This document shows positions 46,129-55,070 of a stretch of DNA of 55,070 nucleotides, piece after piece; the first letter of the stretch is position 1, and the number at the start of each line of letters is the position of its first letter. The translations under genes and the position numbers were made by a program. Location: contig CAIXGS010000050.1 of NCBI GenBank assembly GCA_903919125.1, forward strand, positions 1 through 55,070, given 5' to 3'. The DNA is from an uncultured Spartobacteria bacterium. GTDB taxonomy: Bacteria; Verrucomicrobiota; Verrucomicrobiia; Chthoniobacterales; Chthoniobacteraceae. The notes beneath the pieces are model-generated. The model was given only the letters and a program-made list of their open reading frames with translations, had not been told where the DNA came from and did no database searches.

Positions 46129-47367
46129 ATGAGCGCTCCCGTCATCATTGTAGGCGCTGGCATCGCCGGTCTCGCTTGCGCCCGCACACTCCACCGCGCG
46201 GGGCGCTCTTTCCAGCTCTTCGAAGCCGACTCCCAACCCGGTGGGAGGGTGCGTACTGACCTCACTGAGGATGGATTCCGACTGGATCGCGGCTTTCAAG
46301 TGCTGCTAACAGCTTACCCCGAAGTCCGGCGCCAAATTGACACGAAACGCCTCCAACTGCGCGCGTTTCGTTCCGGAGCAGTCATCCGGCTGCCAGACGG
46401 CAAAGAGACGATGTTACGCGATCCGTTGCGAGATCCACTTGGAGTGCTTGCAGCGTTGCGCGCACCCATAGGAACGCTGCAGGACAAACTGCGTTTGGGC
46501 GCTTTGGTCGCTGGGGTCCTCGGTCGCGAGCCAGACGCGCTTTTGAGAGAGGAACCAATTAGCACGCTGAATTTTCTGCGGCGGCACGGTTGGAGTGAGG
46601 AAATTATCGCGCGTTTTTTTGTGCCTTTTTTTGGGGGAGTTTTTTTGGATCGAACACTTAGCGGCCCAGCAGGCTTTTTCAAATTTGTGTTCCAGCAATT
46701 TGTGTTGGGCCGTGCGGTTTTGCCGGCACTCGGAATGCAACGGTTACCGGAGCAGTTGGCGGCGGCTTTACCAAAAGAAAGCGTGCACCTGGGAGTGCCG
46801 GTTTCGTCGGTGAGTTCTGGCGGCGTTCGCTTTGGCAATGGGCAGTTCACGGAAGGCTCCCATGTCGTATTGGCTGTCGATGGGAAAAACGCGAATCGGT
46901 TACTCCCATCCCATCCCGCACCGGACGGGTGGCGCAAAACGACCTGTCTTTATTTTGCCGCCGCGCAATCCCCGGGCAAGGGCGACGGCTATTTGCGCCT
47001 CAACGCCAGAGCGGATTCGGTGGTTCACAACGTCTGCTTTCCCTCCGACATCGCGCCGGAATACGCACCGAGAGGCAGCGCGCTGGTCTCCGCCAGCGTC
47101 CACGGCGAACACGGACTGGATGAGGAGACTCTTCTCGAAAAAGTGCGTTTGGATTTAGCCGAGTGGTTTGGAGAAGCGGCAACGGAATGGAGACACTTGC
47201 GCAATTACGAGATTCCTTTTGCGTTGCCCACCGGCCCGCAGACACCGCCTGCTGTACGCCTATACGAGGGCGTTTATGTGTGCGGCGACCACACCGCTTA
47301 CCCTTCTCTGAACGCGGCACTCGCCACGGGGCGACTCACAGCCGAAGCCATTTTGCTCAAAAACTAA
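46129..47367 (+). CDS. FAD-dependent amine-oxidase-like protein
   Basis: A 412-residue flavoprotein. The FAD motif VGAGIAGLACARTLHRAG (8-25) and FEADSQPGGRV follow the Amino_oxidase/protoporphyrinogen oxidase pattern, and the C-terminal VYVCGDHTAYPSLNAALATGR is the second FAD motif. It resembles phytoene-desaturase-like and spermine-oxidase-like enzymes. The substrate cannot be read. No signal peptide is seen, so the enzyme is cytoplasmic. Confidence 0.9.
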   Translation: MSAPVIIVGAGIAGLACARTLHRAGRSFQLFEADSQPGGRVRTDLTEDGFRLDRGFQVLLTAYPEVRRQIDTKRLQLRAFRSGAVIRLPDGKETMLRDPLRDPLGVLAALRAPIGTLQDKLRLGALVAGVLGREPDALLREEPISTLNFLRRHGWSEEIIARFFVPFFGGVFLDRTLSGPAGFFKFVFQQFVLGRAVLPALGMQRLPEQLAAALPKESVHLGVPVSSVSSGGVRFGNGQFTEGSHVVLAVDGKNANRLLPSHPAPDGWRKTTCLYFAAAQSPGKGDGYLRLNARADSVVHNVCFPSDIAPEYAPRGSALVSASVHGEHGLDEETLLEKVRLDLAEWFGEAATEWRHLRNYEIPFALPTGPQTPPAVRLYEGVYVCGDHTAYPSLNAALATGRLTAEAILLKN

Positions 47368-47433
47368 CTAAACAACGCCACCCTTCCTTGCTTGAATCTG
47401 GACAGTCGCCTTTTTGTACAGAACGCTCTTTTT

Positions 47434-48717
47434 ATGAAACTCCCCCCGAATCTTTCAAAACCATTTCGCAAATTTTGCGCAGCGTTTCTCGCCCTTTCTC
47501 CCGCTCTTACTGTCGGAGCCGCGCCCTCTGGAGGCCCCGATTGGACAGAGTTTCGCGGCTCGCATTGCAACGGCATTTCTGAGGCGAAAAACGTCCCCTT
47601 GAACTGGAGCCTCGAAAAAGGTGTGGCGTGGAACGTCGAAATTCCGGGTAAGGGATGGTCTTCGCCGGTACTGAGCGAGGGACGAATTTATCTCACCAGC
47701 GCCGTGCCCGATGCTGCGGGCGACATCACATTGAACGCGCTGTGCATCGATCAGGCAACGGGCAACCTTGTTTGGAACAAGGAAGTGCTCCGGCCAGAAG
47801 CGGGTGAGGCGGCGAAAATGCACCGCAAAAACACCGCTGCCAGCCCTACGGCCTTGGTGAAGGACGGCCGCATTTACGTGCATTTCGGCCACATGGGCAC
47901 CGCCGCGTTGGATCTCGCTGGGAACATTCTTTGGACGCAGACCGAGCTCAAATACACTCCTGTACACGGCACAGGTGGCTCCCCCGCAATTATTAACGAC
48001 ATGCTAGTCTTTAGCGCGGATGGCAAAGCCGATCCGTTCGTCGCCGCGCTCGACCTTAAAACCGGTGTTTTGCGTTGGAAAACCGACCGCCAATCGCCTG
48101 CTAAAAAGCAGTTTGCATTCTCCACCCCTCAAGAGATTTGGGTGGATGGAGTGCAACAGATCATCAGCGCGGGTCCCGGTTTCGTAGGGGCTTACGCTCC
48201 GAAGGACGGGCAAGAGCTTTGGAAAGTCGCTTATGGAGAAGGCTATTCCGTGGTGCCACGGCCGGTGTTCGCCCACGGTCTTCTTTATTTAAGTTCAGGA
48301 TTCGACGCCGCCACTCTCTATGCGATTCGCCCAGCGGGAGCCAAAGGTGATGCCACGGAAAGCAACGTCGCGTGGACGCTCAAGAAGGGCGCGCCACACA
48401 CGCCCTCGGTGGTCGTCGTGGAGAACTTACTTTTCTGCGTGTCCGACGCTGGCATCGCCTCCTGTGTGGATGCGCTCACCGGTGAAGTGGCTTGGAGCGA
48501 GCGTTTAGCGGGCAACTTTTCCGCGTCCCCCATTGTCTCCGAGGGTAAGATTTATTTTCAAAACGAAACGGGAAGTACGTTTGTCGTGCGGGCGGCCAAC
48601 ACGTTTGAATTGCTCGCCACCAATGAGCTCAACGAACGCACACTTGCCTCGCCAGCTCCGGCGGACGGCGCGTTGTTTGTGCGCACAGAAACGCATCTTC
48701 TAAAGCTAACGCAGTAA
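47434..48717 (+). CDS. PQQ-type beta-propeller secreted protein (BamB-like)
   Basis: A 427-residue protein. A signal peptide (about 8-30, FRKFCAAFLALSPALTVGA) precedes a beta-propeller of PQQ-like blades with repeated Trp motifs (PDWTEFRG, NLVWNKEV, GVLRWKTD, ELWKVAYG, EVAWSERL). The start is ATG 47434; the upstream TTG adds residues without a signal character. BamB and related planctomycete/verrucomicrobial propellers share this fold. No catalytic PQQ-binding residues are clear, so a scaffold or assembly role is more likely than a dehydrogenase. Confidence 0.88.
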   Translation: MKLPPNLSKPFRKFCAAFLALSPALTVGAAPSGGPDWTEFRGSHCNGISEAKNVPLNWSLEKGVAWNVEIPGKGWSSPVLSEGRIYLTSAVPDAAGDITLNALCIDQATGNLVWNKEVLRPEAGEAAKMHRKNTAASPTALVKDGRIYVHFGHMGTAALDLAGNILWTQTELKYTPVHGTGGSPAIINDMLVFSADGKADPFVAALDLKTGVLRWKTDRQSPAKKQFAFSTPQEIWVDGVQQIISAGPGFVGAYAPKDGQELWKVAYGEGYSVVPRPVFAHGLLYLSSGFDAATLYAIRPAGAKGDATESNVAWTLKKGAPHTPSVVVVENLLFCVSDAGIASCVDALTGEVAWSERLAGNFSASPIVSEGKIYFQNETGSTFVVRAANTFELLATNELNERTLASPAPADGALFVRTETHLLKLTQ

Positions 48718-48737: not shown

Positions 48738-50942
48738 ATGGACCCGCTTTTTTCAGAATTCGAGTCACTCCTTTTAAAGCTGGCGCACAGTCAGGCTTCG
48801 GATCTGTTTCTGGGCGAGGGCCGTGTTCCCTCCTGCAGACTCGACGGCGAGATCCAAACACTGACCGGACCGGCTTCGAGTCGAGAGTTTATCGAGGTGG
48901 CCCTGCGTACAGTGTTGCGGCCCGAGCAGTATGATCTCTTTACCAAAGAGGGAGATATCGACGCGGGATTTACCCACCCAGTCGCGGGACGCTTCCGATT
49001 AAATGCGCATTTGCACCGCAGACGCCCGGCCATGGTGCTGCGGAAAGTGCCTTCGGGCGCGTTGAGCTTTGAAGAGCTTTCACTGCCGGAAAGTCTCAAA
49101 CACTTTGCACAACTCCGGCATGGCTTAATTTTGGTGACGGGTGCCACGGGCTCTGGAAAATCGACGACCCTGGCGGCGATGGTTCACTACATTAACGCCA
49201 ATTTTGCCCGACACATCGTCACCATCGAAGATCCCGTGGAATTCGTGCACGAGGACCTCCGCTCCTTAGTGACCCAACGCGAAGTTGGCAGAGATACGCG
49301 AGATTTCCCAACCGCCTTGCGCCATGTGCTGCGAGAAAGTCCAGATGTCATCGTGCTGGGTGAAATGCGGGACGAAGAAAGCGTTACGGTTGCGATAGCG
49401 GCGGCCCTGACCGGCCATCTCGTAATTTCCACGTTGCACACCGTGGATGCCGCGCAGACGTTGCAGTGTATTCTGGGCTTTTTTCCAGAACACACCCGCG
49501 CACAGGCGCAACAGGATTTGTCGCTTTGTCTGGAGGCCGTGGTTTCCCAACGTCTACTGCCGCTGGCCTCTGGCACGGGCCGGATCGCCGCAGTAGAAGT
49601 GCTCACGATCACTCCGGCGGTGCGGCGTTTGGTGCATGAAGGACGGACCGAAGAGATTCCCGAACTGCTCGGTGCCGGTCTCTATTCCTTCAACCAAGCG
49701 CTGGTGGAGCTCTTCAAAACAGGACGCATCTCTTTGGAAACTGGGCTGCAATACGCTCCGGATGCGGAAGATTTTCTACTTAAAGCGCAAGGGATGGAGC
49801 GGGGTTCCATCGCATTTCTCCCAAAACAGGACGAGCTGTCCGTGGCCGGAAAGTTAGACATGCGTAGTCTCCTGCATTCGGCCAAACGCCATGGCGCAAG
49901 CGACCTTCATCTGGCAGCAGGAACCTGTCCGATGCTCCGAATACAAGGTAGGCTCTGTCCGCTGGACACCCAACAGCTCACAGCCACAGACGTGCGTCAC
50001 CTTTTATTGAGCCTTCTAAACCACGCCCAGAAAGAGCGTTTTGAACTCGAAAAGGAACTGGATTTCGCTATCTCCCTTCCCGACGGCGTTCGGTTACGGA
50101 TCAACGCGCATTACCAACGCCAAACCGTGGCCGTTTCCATCCGCCTGATCCCCAATAAGCTGCCGCCCATCGAAAGCCTCGGGCTCCCCGCTGCCGTGCG
50201 CAATCTGGCTCAAGCCTCCCAAGGACTGGTTCTGATCACGGGCCCCACAGGCAGCGGCAAAAGCACGACGCTGGCGACGTTGATAGATTGCGTCAATTCC
50301 ACGCGCAACTGCCGCATCATCACGGTCGAGGACCCCATCGAGTTCATTCATACCAATCGCTTGGCGACTGTTGAACAACGGGAGGTTGGCGCGGATACCA
50401 AGAGTTTTGCTGACGCTCTAAAATACGTCCTGCGCCAGGATCCAGACATCATCCTTGTCGGGGAAATGCGCGACACCGAGACCATTCAGGCCGCACTAAC
50501 TGCTGCAGAAACGGGCCATCTCGTTTTGGCCACACTCCACACCAACGACGCCCCCCAAGCGGTGGAACGCATCATCGACGTGTTCCCATCGTACCAACAA
50601 AATCAGGTCCGCGCCCAGCTAGCCTCCGCCTTACTCGCTGTGGTTTCCCAGCGCTTGATCCCCACAAAAGAGGAAGGCTCGCGTGCGGCAGCTTTCGAAA
50701 TACTTTTGGCCAGCAGCGCGGTGCGCACTCTGATTCGAGAAAGCAAGACGCACCAGATGGTTGCCGCCATCGAGATGGGATTGCGTGAGGGCATGCAAAC
50801 CTTGGACCGTTCGCTTGAGACCCTTGTGCGGGAGGGCAGAATTACAATGGAAGAGGCTAGCCGCCACATGCGCAATGCGGACTGGAGCCGACAATACCAC
50901 GCAGAAAGTCTAGCACAGGAGGAACACTCCACTCTAGGCTGA
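48738..50942 (+). CDS. pilT: Tandem PilT/PilU-type pilus retraction ATPase in one chain
   Basis: A 734-residue protein made of two PilT-like ATPases. The first (about 1-365): ASDLF segment, Walker A GATGSGKSTT (135-144), TIEDPVEFVHED (Asp box), IVLGEMRDEES (Walker B) and GHLVISTLHTVD (His box). The second (about 370-734): ASDLHLAAG, Walker A GPTGSGKSTT (502-511), TVEDPIEFIHTN, ILVGEMRDTET and GHLVLATLHTND. The second half matches PilT closely, keeping SAVRTLIRE; the first has PAVRRLVHE at that site and resembles PilU. PilT and PilU pull in type IV pili. In most bacteria they are separate genes; here one chain holds both. Confidence 0.92.
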   Translation: MDPLFSEFESLLLKLAHSQASDLFLGEGRVPSCRLDGEIQTLTGPASSREFIEVALRTVLRPEQYDLFTKEGDIDAGFTHPVAGRFRLNAHLHRRRPAMVLRKVPSGALSFEELSLPESLKHFAQLRHGLILVTGATGSGKSTTLAAMVHYINANFARHIVTIEDPVEFVHEDLRSLVTQREVGRDTRDFPTALRHVLRESPDVIVLGEMRDEESVTVAIAAALTGHLVISTLHTVDAAQTLQCILGFFPEHTRAQAQQDLSLCLEAVVSQRLLPLASGTGRIAAVEVLTITPAVRRLVHEGRTEEIPELLGAGLYSFNQALVELFKTGRISLETGLQYAPDAEDFLLKAQGMERGSIAFLPKQDELSVAGKLDMRSLLHSAKRHGASDLHLAAGTCPMLRIQGRLCPLDTQQLTATDVRHLLLSLLNHAQKERFELEKELDFAISLPDGVRLRINAHYQRQTVAVSIRLIPNKLPPIESLGLPAAVRNLAQASQGLVLITGPTGSGKSTTLATLIDCVNSTRNCRIITVEDPIEFIHTNRLATVEQREVGADTKSFADALKYVLRQDPDIILVGEMRDTETIQAALTAAETGHLVLATLHTNDAPQAVERIIDVFPSYQQNQVRAQLASALLAVVSQRLIPTKEEGSRAAAFEILLASSAVRTLIRESKTHQMVAAIEMGLREGMQTLDRSLETLVREGRITMEEASRHMRNADWSRQYHAESLAQEEHSTLG

Positions 50943-50981: not shown

Positions 50982-52895
50982 CTAATCGTAGCGTTCGGGG
51001 TTCAACGTAGTGAGCAAAGCTTGTGCTACCTCGGAAGCGTGCACGCCTTTCATGCAGGCGAAATCCAAGTGGCATTCGCGCTGAAAACACGGCCCACAAG
51101 GGACGCGATGTTGCAACACCGTGTGACCGACGCCCAGTGGCCCGGTCAGGCGCGGTTCGGTGGAACCAAAAATTGCAACCACTGGCACGCCGAGCATGGC
51201 AGCGAGATGCATGGTGCCTGTGTCGTTGGTGAGCAAAGTATCGCAGCCGCGCAAACACTCGAGCAATTCCTCCAAGGTCGTGCGGCCGATCTGATTATCA
51301 ACCACAATCCCCTTCCCCGCAGGCAACGCCGCCTCAATCGCCGCTCCAGCCGCAGCATCCTTGGCCACCCCAACAAGCACCCACTCCACCGCTTGCGCTT
51401 CCGAAACGCGCTCTATCACCTCAGCGAACCGCTCCGGAAGCCAGCGTTTTGCCCCGCCAAACTCCGCTCCGGGACAAACCGCCACGCGGCGCACCTGCGA
51501 AACGCTTCGGCCCACGCGAGGCGCCACCCATTCCTCCGGTTCCAAACGCGGCGCCCCCATACTCTCCGCCAAATCCAAATAAGAATGCACCTGGTGACGC
51601 AAGGCAACCGGCGCACTCGAAACCGAAGGCTTTTCCAACACCTGGTTTAATAGCGCGGCCCGAAAGTGCCCTCGATAGCCGACTCGCCGCGGAATACCGG
51701 CTAGCCACGCCTCGAGTCCTGTGCGCAGAGAGTTAGGCAATACCACAGCAGCATCAAAATTTTCAGCACGCAACAACGCTGCAGCCGCGAGGATGCCGCA
51801 CTTTGGAGGCAGCGACAGCACTCGGTCGACCTCCGGAACCGCCCTCCAAAATCCAGCGAGTTTAGATTGGCAAACCACCGTGATTTGCAAATCCGGTCGC
51901 GTCCGTTTCATGGCGCGAATCGCCGGAAGCGTCATCACAGCGTCGCCCAACCAGTTTACGGAACGCACCATCAGCCGGAACGGCGTAAGCCCCTGGTCGG
52001 ACAAGATGCCGCGTTTACCGCCGATGCTCAAGAAGCGAGGATACGGCGTTTTCCAGCGATTATGAGACCAGAGCCAGTCGGAAGGCTGCTGGCGGATCAT
52101 GGCTTCGAGTTCAAGGTTGAGCTTCGCCGTGGCTGCGGCCGTTTCCTTGGGCAAGGCGATGGCTGGGCGAAACACCAGACGCCAGCGGCCCTTTGGCGAG
52201 GTGTAAAGCGCGATCCCCACTACTGCGGCACCAGTACGAAGCGCCATCGTGGCCACAAGCGGGGAGGTTGAGGCCAGACGATTGAATAGCGGACACCACA
52301 AGCCGGAGTCACCAGCGTGTTGATCCGCCAACACTCCTACCACACCGCCCTTTCGCAACAGTTCCATCGCGCTATGAAAGCCTTCTTTGCGCTGAAAAAG
52401 ATGCAAACCCTCGGTGGCCCGCGTGCGCCGAATCCACGCGTCTATATGCTCGTTGCTAAGCGACTGGTACACCGAACCGCATTCGCACGGAAACATTTGA
52501 GGCGTCAGGCGCGCCAACAATTCCCAGTTCCCCAAGTGCCCCAGCAACGCGACCACGCCCTTCCCTGAACTCAGCGCATTAATCAAGTGCTCGAAACCTT
52601 CCACGTCCACTAACTTCTGAAGCTCTCCGGCGGGCACTTGTGACAGACAGGCGCCGGCAGCGATGTTACCCGCCATTCCCGCAAAATGCTCCCGCCCGAT
52701 GCGCTCCTTTTGTTCGGGCGAATATTCTGCGCCAAACGCAGTGTCCAAGTTACGCCGAACCAACCGCCGATAATGCGCTGCGAAATACCAGCCCACGCCG
52801 CCTGCCAGACGAGCCGTCGCAATCACAACACGCAAGGGAAGCCTGCCCAATACAGCCCATACGGCGCGGGCAAACAAATAAGTGAGGCGGTTCAT
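50982..52895 (-). CDS. Fusion of LpxL-type acyltransferase and GT9 heptosyltransferase
   Basis: A 637-residue fusion. Residues 1-285 match late acyltransferases of lipid A biosynthesis: His120-x4-Glu125 in GHLGNWELL (HX4E catalytic motif), then GVLADQHAGDSGLWCPLFN and WLWSHNRWK. A short linker (286-305) joins the ADP-heptose:LPS heptosyltransferase (GT9) domain (306-637), with SVNWLGDAVMTLPAIRAM and NDTGTMHLAAMLGVPVVAIFGSTEP. The first half acylates lipid A precursors in the inner membrane and the second transfers heptose to the core. It ends about 40 bp from the PilT gene, in the opposite direction, and is 6 bp downstream of the oligopeptide-binding gene. Confidence 0.92.
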   Translation of the reverse strand: MNRLTYLFARAVWAVLGRLPLRVVIATARLAGGVGWYFAAHYRRLVRRNLDTAFGAEYSPEQKERIGREHFAGMAGNIAAGACLSQVPAGELQKLVDVEGFEHLINALSSGKGVVALLGHLGNWELLARLTPQMFPCECGSVYQSLSNEHIDAWIRRTRATEGLHLFQRKEGFHSAMELLRKGGVVGVLADQHAGDSGLWCPLFNRLASTSPLVATMALRTGAAVVGIALYTSPKGRWRLVFRPAIALPKETAAATAKLNLELEAMIRQQPSDWLWSHNRWKTPYPRFLSIGGKRGILSDQGLTPFRLMVRSVNWLGDAVMTLPAIRAMKRTRPDLQITVVCQSKLAGFWRAVPEVDRVLSLPPKCGILAAAALLRAENFDAAVVLPNSLRTGLEAWLAGIPRRVGYRGHFRAALLNQVLEKPSVSSAPVALRHQVHSYLDLAESMGAPRLEPEEWVAPRVGRSVSQVRRVAVCPGAEFGGAKRWLPERFAEVIERVSEAQAVEWVLVGVAKDAAAGAAIEAALPAGKGIVVDNQIGRTTLEELLECLRGCDTLLTNDTGTMHLAAMLGVPVVAIFGSTEPRLTGPLGVGHTVLQHRVPCGPCFQRECHLDFACMKGVHASEVAQALLTTLNPERYD

Positions 52896-54666: not shown

Positions 54667-55070
54667 TTACTGTTGAGGAGCGCCGTCAGGTTTTGGAGCT
54701 GGGGCTGGGCTGGCTGGAGGCGCGTCAGCCTTGGGAGCGTCAGCCTTGGGAGCGTCAACCTTGGGAGCGTCAGCCTTGGGAGCGTCGGCCTTGGGAGCGT
54801 CAGCCTTGGGAGCGTCGGCCTTGGGGGCGTCAACCTTGGGGGCGTCAGCCTTGGGAGCGTCAACCTTGGGAGCGTCAGCCTTGGGAGCGTCAGCCTTGGG
54901 GGCGTCGGCCTTGGGGGCGTCGGCCTTGGGGGCGTCGGCCTTGGGGGCGTCGGCCTTGGGGGCGTCGGCCTTGGGGGCGTCGGCCTTGGGAGCGTCGGCC
55001 TTGGGAGCGTCGGCCTTGGGGGCGTCGGCCTTGGGGGCGTCGGCCTTGGGAGCGTCGGCCTTGGGGGCGT
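54667..55070 (-). CDS. Pro/Lys/Asp/Ala repeat protein, partial (N-terminus beyond right edge)
   Basis: The C-terminal about 134 residues are visible. From position 55070 leftward the protein consists of pentapeptides PKADA with some PKVDA, encoded by 15-bp tandem units, then PPASPAPAPKPDGAPQQ and a TAA at 54667-54669. The three minus-strand frames are all open across the repeats. I chose this one because its product is a soluble, charge-balanced Pro-rich chain with a sensible end and a stop beyond the repeats, while the others read as RLTLP or Gly/Arg-type strings. It resembles the Lys/Ala/Pro/Asp-rich linkers of periplasmic or surface proteins (a TonB-like spacer would be one case). The rest of the gene is outside. 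Confidence 0.65.
   Translation of the reverse strand, partial: APKADAPKADAPKADAPKADAPKADAPKADAPKADAPKADAPKADAPKADAPKADAPKADAPKADAPKVDAPKADAPKVDAPKADAPKADAPKADAPKADAPKVDAPKADAPKADAPPASPAPAPKPDGAPQQ
54721..55070 (-). repeat. Tandem array of at least 23 units of 15 bp
   Basis: Exact 15-bp periods from 54721 to 55065 (23 full units plus 5 nt), with the plus-strand consensus RGCGTCRGCCTTGGG. Differences lie at two R positions; three units (the third, eighth and tenth) carry AAC, changing Ala to Val. The first 12 units vary more, while the last 11 are almost identical, which suggests recent expansion on the right. The array continues past the edge. Because 15 is a multiple of 3, copy changes do not shift the frame. 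Confidence 0.93.

Follow-up and report, generated by a model that had tools for sequence, protein, structure and literature searches.

A single reading frame encodes two PilT-family ATPases

On the forward strand of the window (the whole 55,070-nucleotide stretch of DNA analysed here), an ATG at position 48738 opens a single run of 734 codons that ends with a stop at 50940-50942 (Table 1). On the opposite strand of the same stretch, the one frame that was read contains many stops. Pfam and NCBIfam profiles of the T2SSE/PilT type matched the 734-aa chain in two stretches, and TIGR01420, the model of the PilT/PilU family, scored 831.4 bits on the whole chain, again in two stretches, with a curated cut-off of 319.1. 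When the halves were scored singly, both the N-half (385.1 bits) and the C-half (451.9 bits) exceeded this cut-off. One frame and a family model matching twice confirm the original prediction of two complete PilT/PilU-family ATPases in one chain, and the predicted distance of 367 residues between the Walker A motifs is exact, these starting at residues 135 and 502. We regard the identity of the gene product as a fused PilT-family motor as almost certain.

Table 1 Features of the fused gene and its upstream neighbours in the window.
Feature	Coordinates	Strand	Details
Flavin amine oxidase-type protein, two genes upstream	46129..47367	+	same place in G001, G003, G004, G007
PQQ beta-propeller (BamB-type) protein, adjoining upstream	47392..48717	+	also in G001, G003, G004, G007
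Fused two-motor ATPase gene	48738..50942	+	734 aa plus stop; ORF and profile matches
N-terminal PilT/PilU-family ATPase	48750..49772	+	about residues 5-345; every catalytic motif; LVHE replaces LIRE
Walker A, N-half (GATGSGKS)	49140..49163	+	residues 135-142
Walker B, N-half (DVIVLGEMRD)	49344..49373	+	residues 203-212
Deviant AIRNLIRE-type stretch, N-half (AVRRLVHEG)	49617..49643	+	residues 294-302
Linker	49773..49856	+	about residues 346-373; conserved G-M-E-x-G motif at 352-356
C-terminal PilT-type ATPase	49857..50897	+	about residues 374-720
Walker A, C-half (GPTGSGKS)	50241..50264	+	residues 502-509
Walker B, C-half (DIILVGEMRD)	50445..50474	+	residues 570-579
AIRNLIRE-type motif, C-half (AVRTLIRES)	50718..50744	+	residues 661-669

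Both halves retain their catalytic motifs

Fusion proteins were aligned in 46 rows (43 distinct sequences; the window is row L008). Walker A, Asp box, Walker B and His box are intact in both halves in all 46 rows, which rules out that one of the halves is dead. Many C-halves from outside the window's genus read GPTGHGKST at the P-loop, in our view a substitution at a variable position and not a loss. The LIRE motif had been described as kept in the C-half and deviant in the N-half; this is correct for the window sequence (AVRTLIRE, 661-668, and AVRRLVHE, 294-301, respectively), with the reservation that in the seven further genomes of the genus that carry the fusion, the N-half has RE at this place. 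Across the alignment, R-[ED] of LIRE is present in the C-half of 46/46 rows and in the N-half of eight, every one of them from the window's genus; none of the 37 rows from outside the genus carries R-E or R-D there in the N-half.

Comparison of the window's genome (G000) with its nearest relative (G009) gave dN/dS ratios of 0.09 for the N-half and 0.07 for the C-half, and codon substitution shows purifying selection on both ATPase halves. The ratio was about 0.60 over the 28 codons of the linker. The linker keeps a steady length, 24-29 residues across the 61 locus entries measured (some of them the same gene again), and within its motif G352 and G356 are conserved in 44/45 rows and M353 in 39/45. 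An internal start that would give the C-half alone was ruled out as a conserved feature: the Met at residue 375 is present in 32/45 rows and replaced by Ile or Val in 13, and a steady ribosome-binding-like sequence is missing upstream of it.

Genomic setting of the fused gene

The beta-propeller gene directly upstream also precedes the fusion in G009, at a contig end, and the neighbours in G005 differ from those in the window, with no beta-propeller there. On the other side of the motor gene, the minus strand (50985-52895) encodes another fusion, a 637-aa protein that joins a lipid A acyltransferase (residues 9-283) to a family 9 heptosyltransferase (374-610). A 15-bp tandem repeat (54722-55070; 23.3 copies, 94% match) reaches the end of the contig.

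Separate pilT and pilU genes in the same genome had been suggested as a check, and a separate pair was indeed found on contig C52. At 41 diagnostic columns, where PilT and PilU differ, its two members show 24 PilT-type versus 5 PilU-type letters and 23 versus 8; judged by these residues, this is a different pair, with both parts PilT-type. As the genome also has this pair, the fused motor may not be its main one. More generally, a stand-alone TIGR01420 member scoring over the cut-off occurs in 30 of the 31 fusion-bearing genomes among 38 searched, the exception being G398, with none among the matches listed. Beside the C52 pair lies a gene for an 888-aa protein with protein kinase and sulfatase-modifying-factor domains (L154, 11543-14206).

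Further components of the type IV kind are spread over three contigs: C74 carries two PilB/GspE-like ATPases together with a PilC/GspF-like protein, C46 has a GspE-like ATPase next to a GspD-like secretin, and C76 encodes PilM, another secretin and a second PilC/GspF-like protein. C76 also encodes a 630-aa protein (L174, 12394-14286) with GreA/GreB domains at 476-625 and about 475 residues ahead of them. Given that the genome holds several type IV-type systems, and that the fusion lies on a different contig with no pil gene among its four searched neighbours, the fused motor might drive some other filament of the type IV family, such as a type II secretion pseudopilus or an adhesive pilus, and not twitching. 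We think this improbable: both halves exceed the cut-off set for type IVa retraction ATPases, and retraction ATPase genes are commonly distant from other pilus genes.

The fusion is common in a related class of Verrucomicrobiota

Among 57 near genomes, an uninterrupted full-length match was found in 8/12 genomes of the window's genus and in none of the 24 other genomes of the family or the 21 other genomes of the order; one of the 57, G049, has both parts separated by one stop. For the phylum, an even draw of 387 genomes was surveyed at a match threshold of E 1e-120 or better. The 91 matches comprised the window's own genome, three genomes of its own class, each with one stop, and 87 genomes of other classes, two of them partial (G253, G431). 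In the class of G202, 100/148 genomes match at 42-53% identity, 98 of them over both halves (G253 and G456 are partial). The joined gene is common in this class of Verrucomicrobiota, which is related to the window's own. In the window's own class, 9/236 genomes match, and the frame is uninterrupted only in three, which all belong to the window's genus. The six strong matches from outside the genus (G049, G266, G268, G318, G523, G572) have one stop in frame, and in all four that were read (G049, G266, G268, G318) this stop sits between two genes.

The best 80 of 581 loci contained nine single-frame fusions, one labelled Opitutus (L038) and the others Lentisphaerae, Victivallaceae or Akkermansiaceae (L039-L044, L047, L048). 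The fusion row of L038 is identical to that of G009, and at the protein level L040 equals L139 (G419) and L041 equals L145 (G328). For L140, L143 and L150-L153, the one reported stop falls after the second half, with both halves in one frame of 724-759 aa. Akkermansiaceae is a family of class Verrucomicrobiia. Two loci with this label, L042 and L043, are fused, and L042 groups in the tree (see below) with fusions from other classes. Either a mistaken label or fusions outside the genus in the window's own class would account for this. Five genomes (G199, G224, G239, G306, G322) hold two copies of the fused motor gene. An apparently longer fusion in G349 (a 1351-aa frame) was ruled out, its first part, which we take to be a dGTPase by look, crossing a run of N that marks an assembly join.

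The original prediction would fall with a stop or an assembly error between residues 365 and 370. Unfused relatives with a single in-frame stop do occur in the same order and class, as might be expected if assembly or sequencing had dropped a stop codon from the window. On checking, though, the frame proved open and fused in seven other genomes of the genus (61-89% identity), and the 98 both-half matches in another class contradict such an error as well. Because the fusion is uninterrupted in two thirds of the genus genomes and recurs in another class, it is not an assembly error; we consider an artefact vanishingly improbable.

A PilT-like C-half and an N-half from a probably distinct partner lineage

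Sequence searches with the C-half favoured PilT4 of Geobacter (353 bits) over PilU (270.5 bits). The best match of the N-half among solved sequences was Thermus PilT2 (PDB 5FL3; 279.8 bits), ahead of PilU (260.7 bits). On the 41 diagnostic columns, the window's N-half carries 18 PilT-type and 11 PilU-type letters and the C-half 17 and 11, no better than the N-half; the means over the fusions are 14.0 and 11.8 for N-halves and 15.8 and 11.1 for C-halves. PilU relatives from outside the Gammaproteobacteria (L050, L079, L104) have 25-27 PilU-type letters of 41. Since the C-half is barely set apart from the N-half, these columns argue against PilU for both halves and not for PilT in one of them.

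A tree was built of 84 domains, picked from 187 plus six from unfused pairs. The 16 N-halves form one clade (support 100/99), as do the 16 C-halves (97/96). The C-halves lie on the PilT side, but at an open fork (94/89), and the N-halves form their own clade outside that of PilU, although an AU test did not reject a joint clade of N-halves and PilU (p = 0.33). The predicted PilT-like character of the C-half is supported by sequence search, LIRE motif and tree, with the caveat that its letters on the diagnostic columns divide 17 to 11. The predicted PilU-like character of the N-half stands in part. It is a divergent, faster-evolving partner; yet it falls outside the PilU clade, matches Thermus PilT2 best and is not PilU by its residues. 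As an orthologue of PilU, the N-half is unsupported by tree and diagnostic residues, compatible as the AU test is with this placement.

The difference in rate resembles that seen between the separate proteins. Among 39 fusions, identity averages 50% for N-halves and 60% for C-halves, with the C-half more conserved in 739/741 pairs; at 33 gammaproteobacterial loci, the values are 69% for PilU and 81% for PilT, with PilT more conserved in 526/528 pairs (in neither set are the pairs independent). On this sequence evidence, we take the N-half to be a distinct, faster-evolving partner lineage of the PilT family, which is PilU by position at most and not by residues.

Probable origin from a tandem gene pair

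Within both the N-half and the C-half clade, the fusions of the window's genus are sister to all remaining fusions. The C-halves, in turn, have as their sister group the second genes from seven unfused adjacent PilT-type pairs of the same order and class (G036, G043, G049, G053, G266, G268, G318; support 97/84). The first genes of these pairs sit on a long branch in the tree. Constraining them to one clade with the N-halves was not rejected; the log-likelihood was in fact 0.14 higher (p = 0.50). The rows printed also show a like tail, GM or RGI, at the end of both N-halves and first genes, unlike PilU.

The single stop between two genes in the unfused relatives points to a tandem pair that lost its stop, and the simplest reading of these sequences would be that an adjacent PilT-family pair did so once. 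The window's genus may have acquired the fusion by horizontal transfer, or an old fusion may have been kept there with losses elsewhere; with the genus fusions sister to the others in both halves, the data decide for neither. Two further loci, L045 (3764-7232) and L049 (3794-7341, labelled Chthonomonas, Armatimonadota), have three separate PilT-family genes in a row.

Predicted fold and arrangement of the fused motor

An AlphaFold2 single-chain model was computed from 39 of the 46 fusion rows, copies and some near relatives being left out. It has a pLDDT of 89.3 and comprises two PilT folds whose relative placement is unsure (pTM 0.54), joined by a linker with pLDDT below 50 at residues 353-370. 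In a fold search, residues 367-722 matched PilT4 (Z 45.8, rmsd 2.4, 356 aligned) and residues 6-353 matched PilU (PDB 9N32; Z 42.6, rmsd 3.0, 348 aligned); as the search gave one row per entry, the latter match does not rank PilU above PilT. No single chain among the matches listed aligned to both halves at low rmsd, which is not proof that none exists.

For unfused PilT and PilU, separate, stacked homohexamers have been argued for (PMC6821130, PMC6762196, PMC12607626, PMC13142100) and mixed hexamers argued against (PMC6821130, PMC6762196, PMC12607626). PMC12607626 mentions modelling of stacked hexamers and states that their orientation and stoichiometry still need experimental validation. PMC13142100 cites a PilU-like cryo-ET density directly beneath PilT and presents a model in which the PilU CTD touches the PilT NTDs; it also describes how, within a single ring, the CTD of each subunit packs onto the NTD of the next. 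The fusion runs from the LIRE-deviant ATPase through its CTD and the linker to the NTD of the PilT-type half. This order fits a stack of the PilU-under-PilT kind, but on its own it is not decisive, because CTD and next NTD also meet in a single ring.

Extended to the fusion, the published homohexamer stacks would imply six chains in two rings. Loss of the stop between adjacent PilT-family genes would have produced a two-headed type IV pilus retraction motor, six copies of which would build two stacked hexameric rings. The ring of C-halves, PilT-type with LIRE, would dock on the platform protein PilC and act as PilT, and the ring of N-halves beneath it, on the cytoplasmic side, would contribute force, the part that PilU plays for PilT. 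Where PilU and PilT are described as touching, through the C-terminal part of the one and the N-terminal domain of the other, the fusion would have a covalent join in its linker, which would set both rings at one to one. PMC12607626 describes the last 30 residues of PilU as disordered and typically missing from PilT, and the linker is close to these in length. Against such a stack, the RE motif persists in seven of the eight N-halves of the window's genus, and the faster evolution of the N-half would also fit an alternating ring with one leading subunit. We see the chances of the stacked double ring as evenly balanced.

The original prediction had envisaged three chains with alternating subunits. 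Three fused chains would then close one hexameric ring, in which N- and C-halves, and with them open and closed interfaces, alternate by subunit type. In our own mapping onto the PilT residues of PMC6858323, the positions that correspond to R81, D161, E164, R195 and H230 never vary in either half, conservation reaches at least 90% at those matching T221 and L269, and PMC6858323 describes these residues on both sides of the ring interface. C3 rings of open and closed interfaces have been observed for PilT and PilU, and since a CTD packs on the NTD of the adjoining subunit, a 26-residue linker could connect neighbours. Yet unfused PilT and PilU are reported unmixed (PMC6821130, PMC6762196, PMC12607626), and PMC6858323 puts forward C2 symmetry for PilT at work, with opposite subunits equivalent, where alternation would set an N-half against a C-half. 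Both halves would moreover meet PilC alike in such a ring, and yet their rates of evolution differ. We do not favour the alternating ring on this analysis and hold it to be unlikely.

Less likely again is a C-half ring working as PilT from which the N-half hangs as a flexible regulator or spare ATPase. The low confidence of the model along the linker and in the placement of the halves would suit a mobile attachment, as would the high dN/dS of the linker. The N-half, though, keeps its catalytic motifs in every row and has a dN/dS of 0.09, and a linker of steady length that starts with a conserved motif exceeds the needs of a loose tether. Returning to the stacked double ring, our fuller and more tentative proposal, which we place somewhat below an even chance, is a covalently locked motor of the PilU-under-PilT kind whose one-to-one ratio is fixed, conserved throughout a class of Verrucomicrobiota and shared by one Opitutus-labelled genus, and derived from a PilT-family lineage that is not PilU and reached the partnership independently.

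Relation to known retraction motors and tandem ATPases

Among the literature matches listed, no title or abstract opening mentions such a fusion, subscription papers and bioRxiv preprints being mostly outside the scope of the search. The fusion is a new architecture within the PilT/PilU family and not a new kind of machine. The arrangement of PilT and its partner and the ratio between them are stated as unsettled in PMC12607626. Natural joining fixes the ratio by construction, and the arrangement could be read from one purification, by whether three chains make a single ring or six make a pair of rings; the fused gene is in this sense a natural tool for studying the layout of paired retraction motors. 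It suggests that two retraction ATPases are coupled in a lineage whose second ATPase is not PilU, and coupling of PilT to a partner may perhaps be more general than the gammaproteobacterial pair.

The C-half is like PilT4 of Geobacter (PDB 6OJX/6OKV/5ZFQ), a type IVa retraction ATPase, in family score, LIRE motif and fold; the difference from PilT is the second complete ATPase fused to its N-terminus. To PilU, the PilT-dependent second retraction ATPase, the N-half is akin as the partner of a PilT-type protein, with intact catalytic motifs, a deviant LIRE, faster evolution and an extra C-terminal segment. It differs from PilU in its place outside the PilU clade, in lacking the diagnostic residues, and in being encoded before the PilT part, not after it, and covalently joined to it. 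The analogy with PilU rests on position, rate and motif, because the N-half is not PilU by residues and its grouping with PilU is no more than possible. Thermus PilT2 is the solved sequence closest to the N-half but a stand-alone protein, separate from Thermus PilT1. Unfused adjacent pairs have the same order of parts as the fusion but encode separate proteins, their two genes being divided by a stop. Stacked double rings of six chains are formed by KaiC and other tandem hexameric ATPases. KaiC likewise has two ATPase domains of one fold per chain, though of a different family, and its rows in the fold search span both halves, but at an rmsd of about 14, so that no common arrangement is shown.
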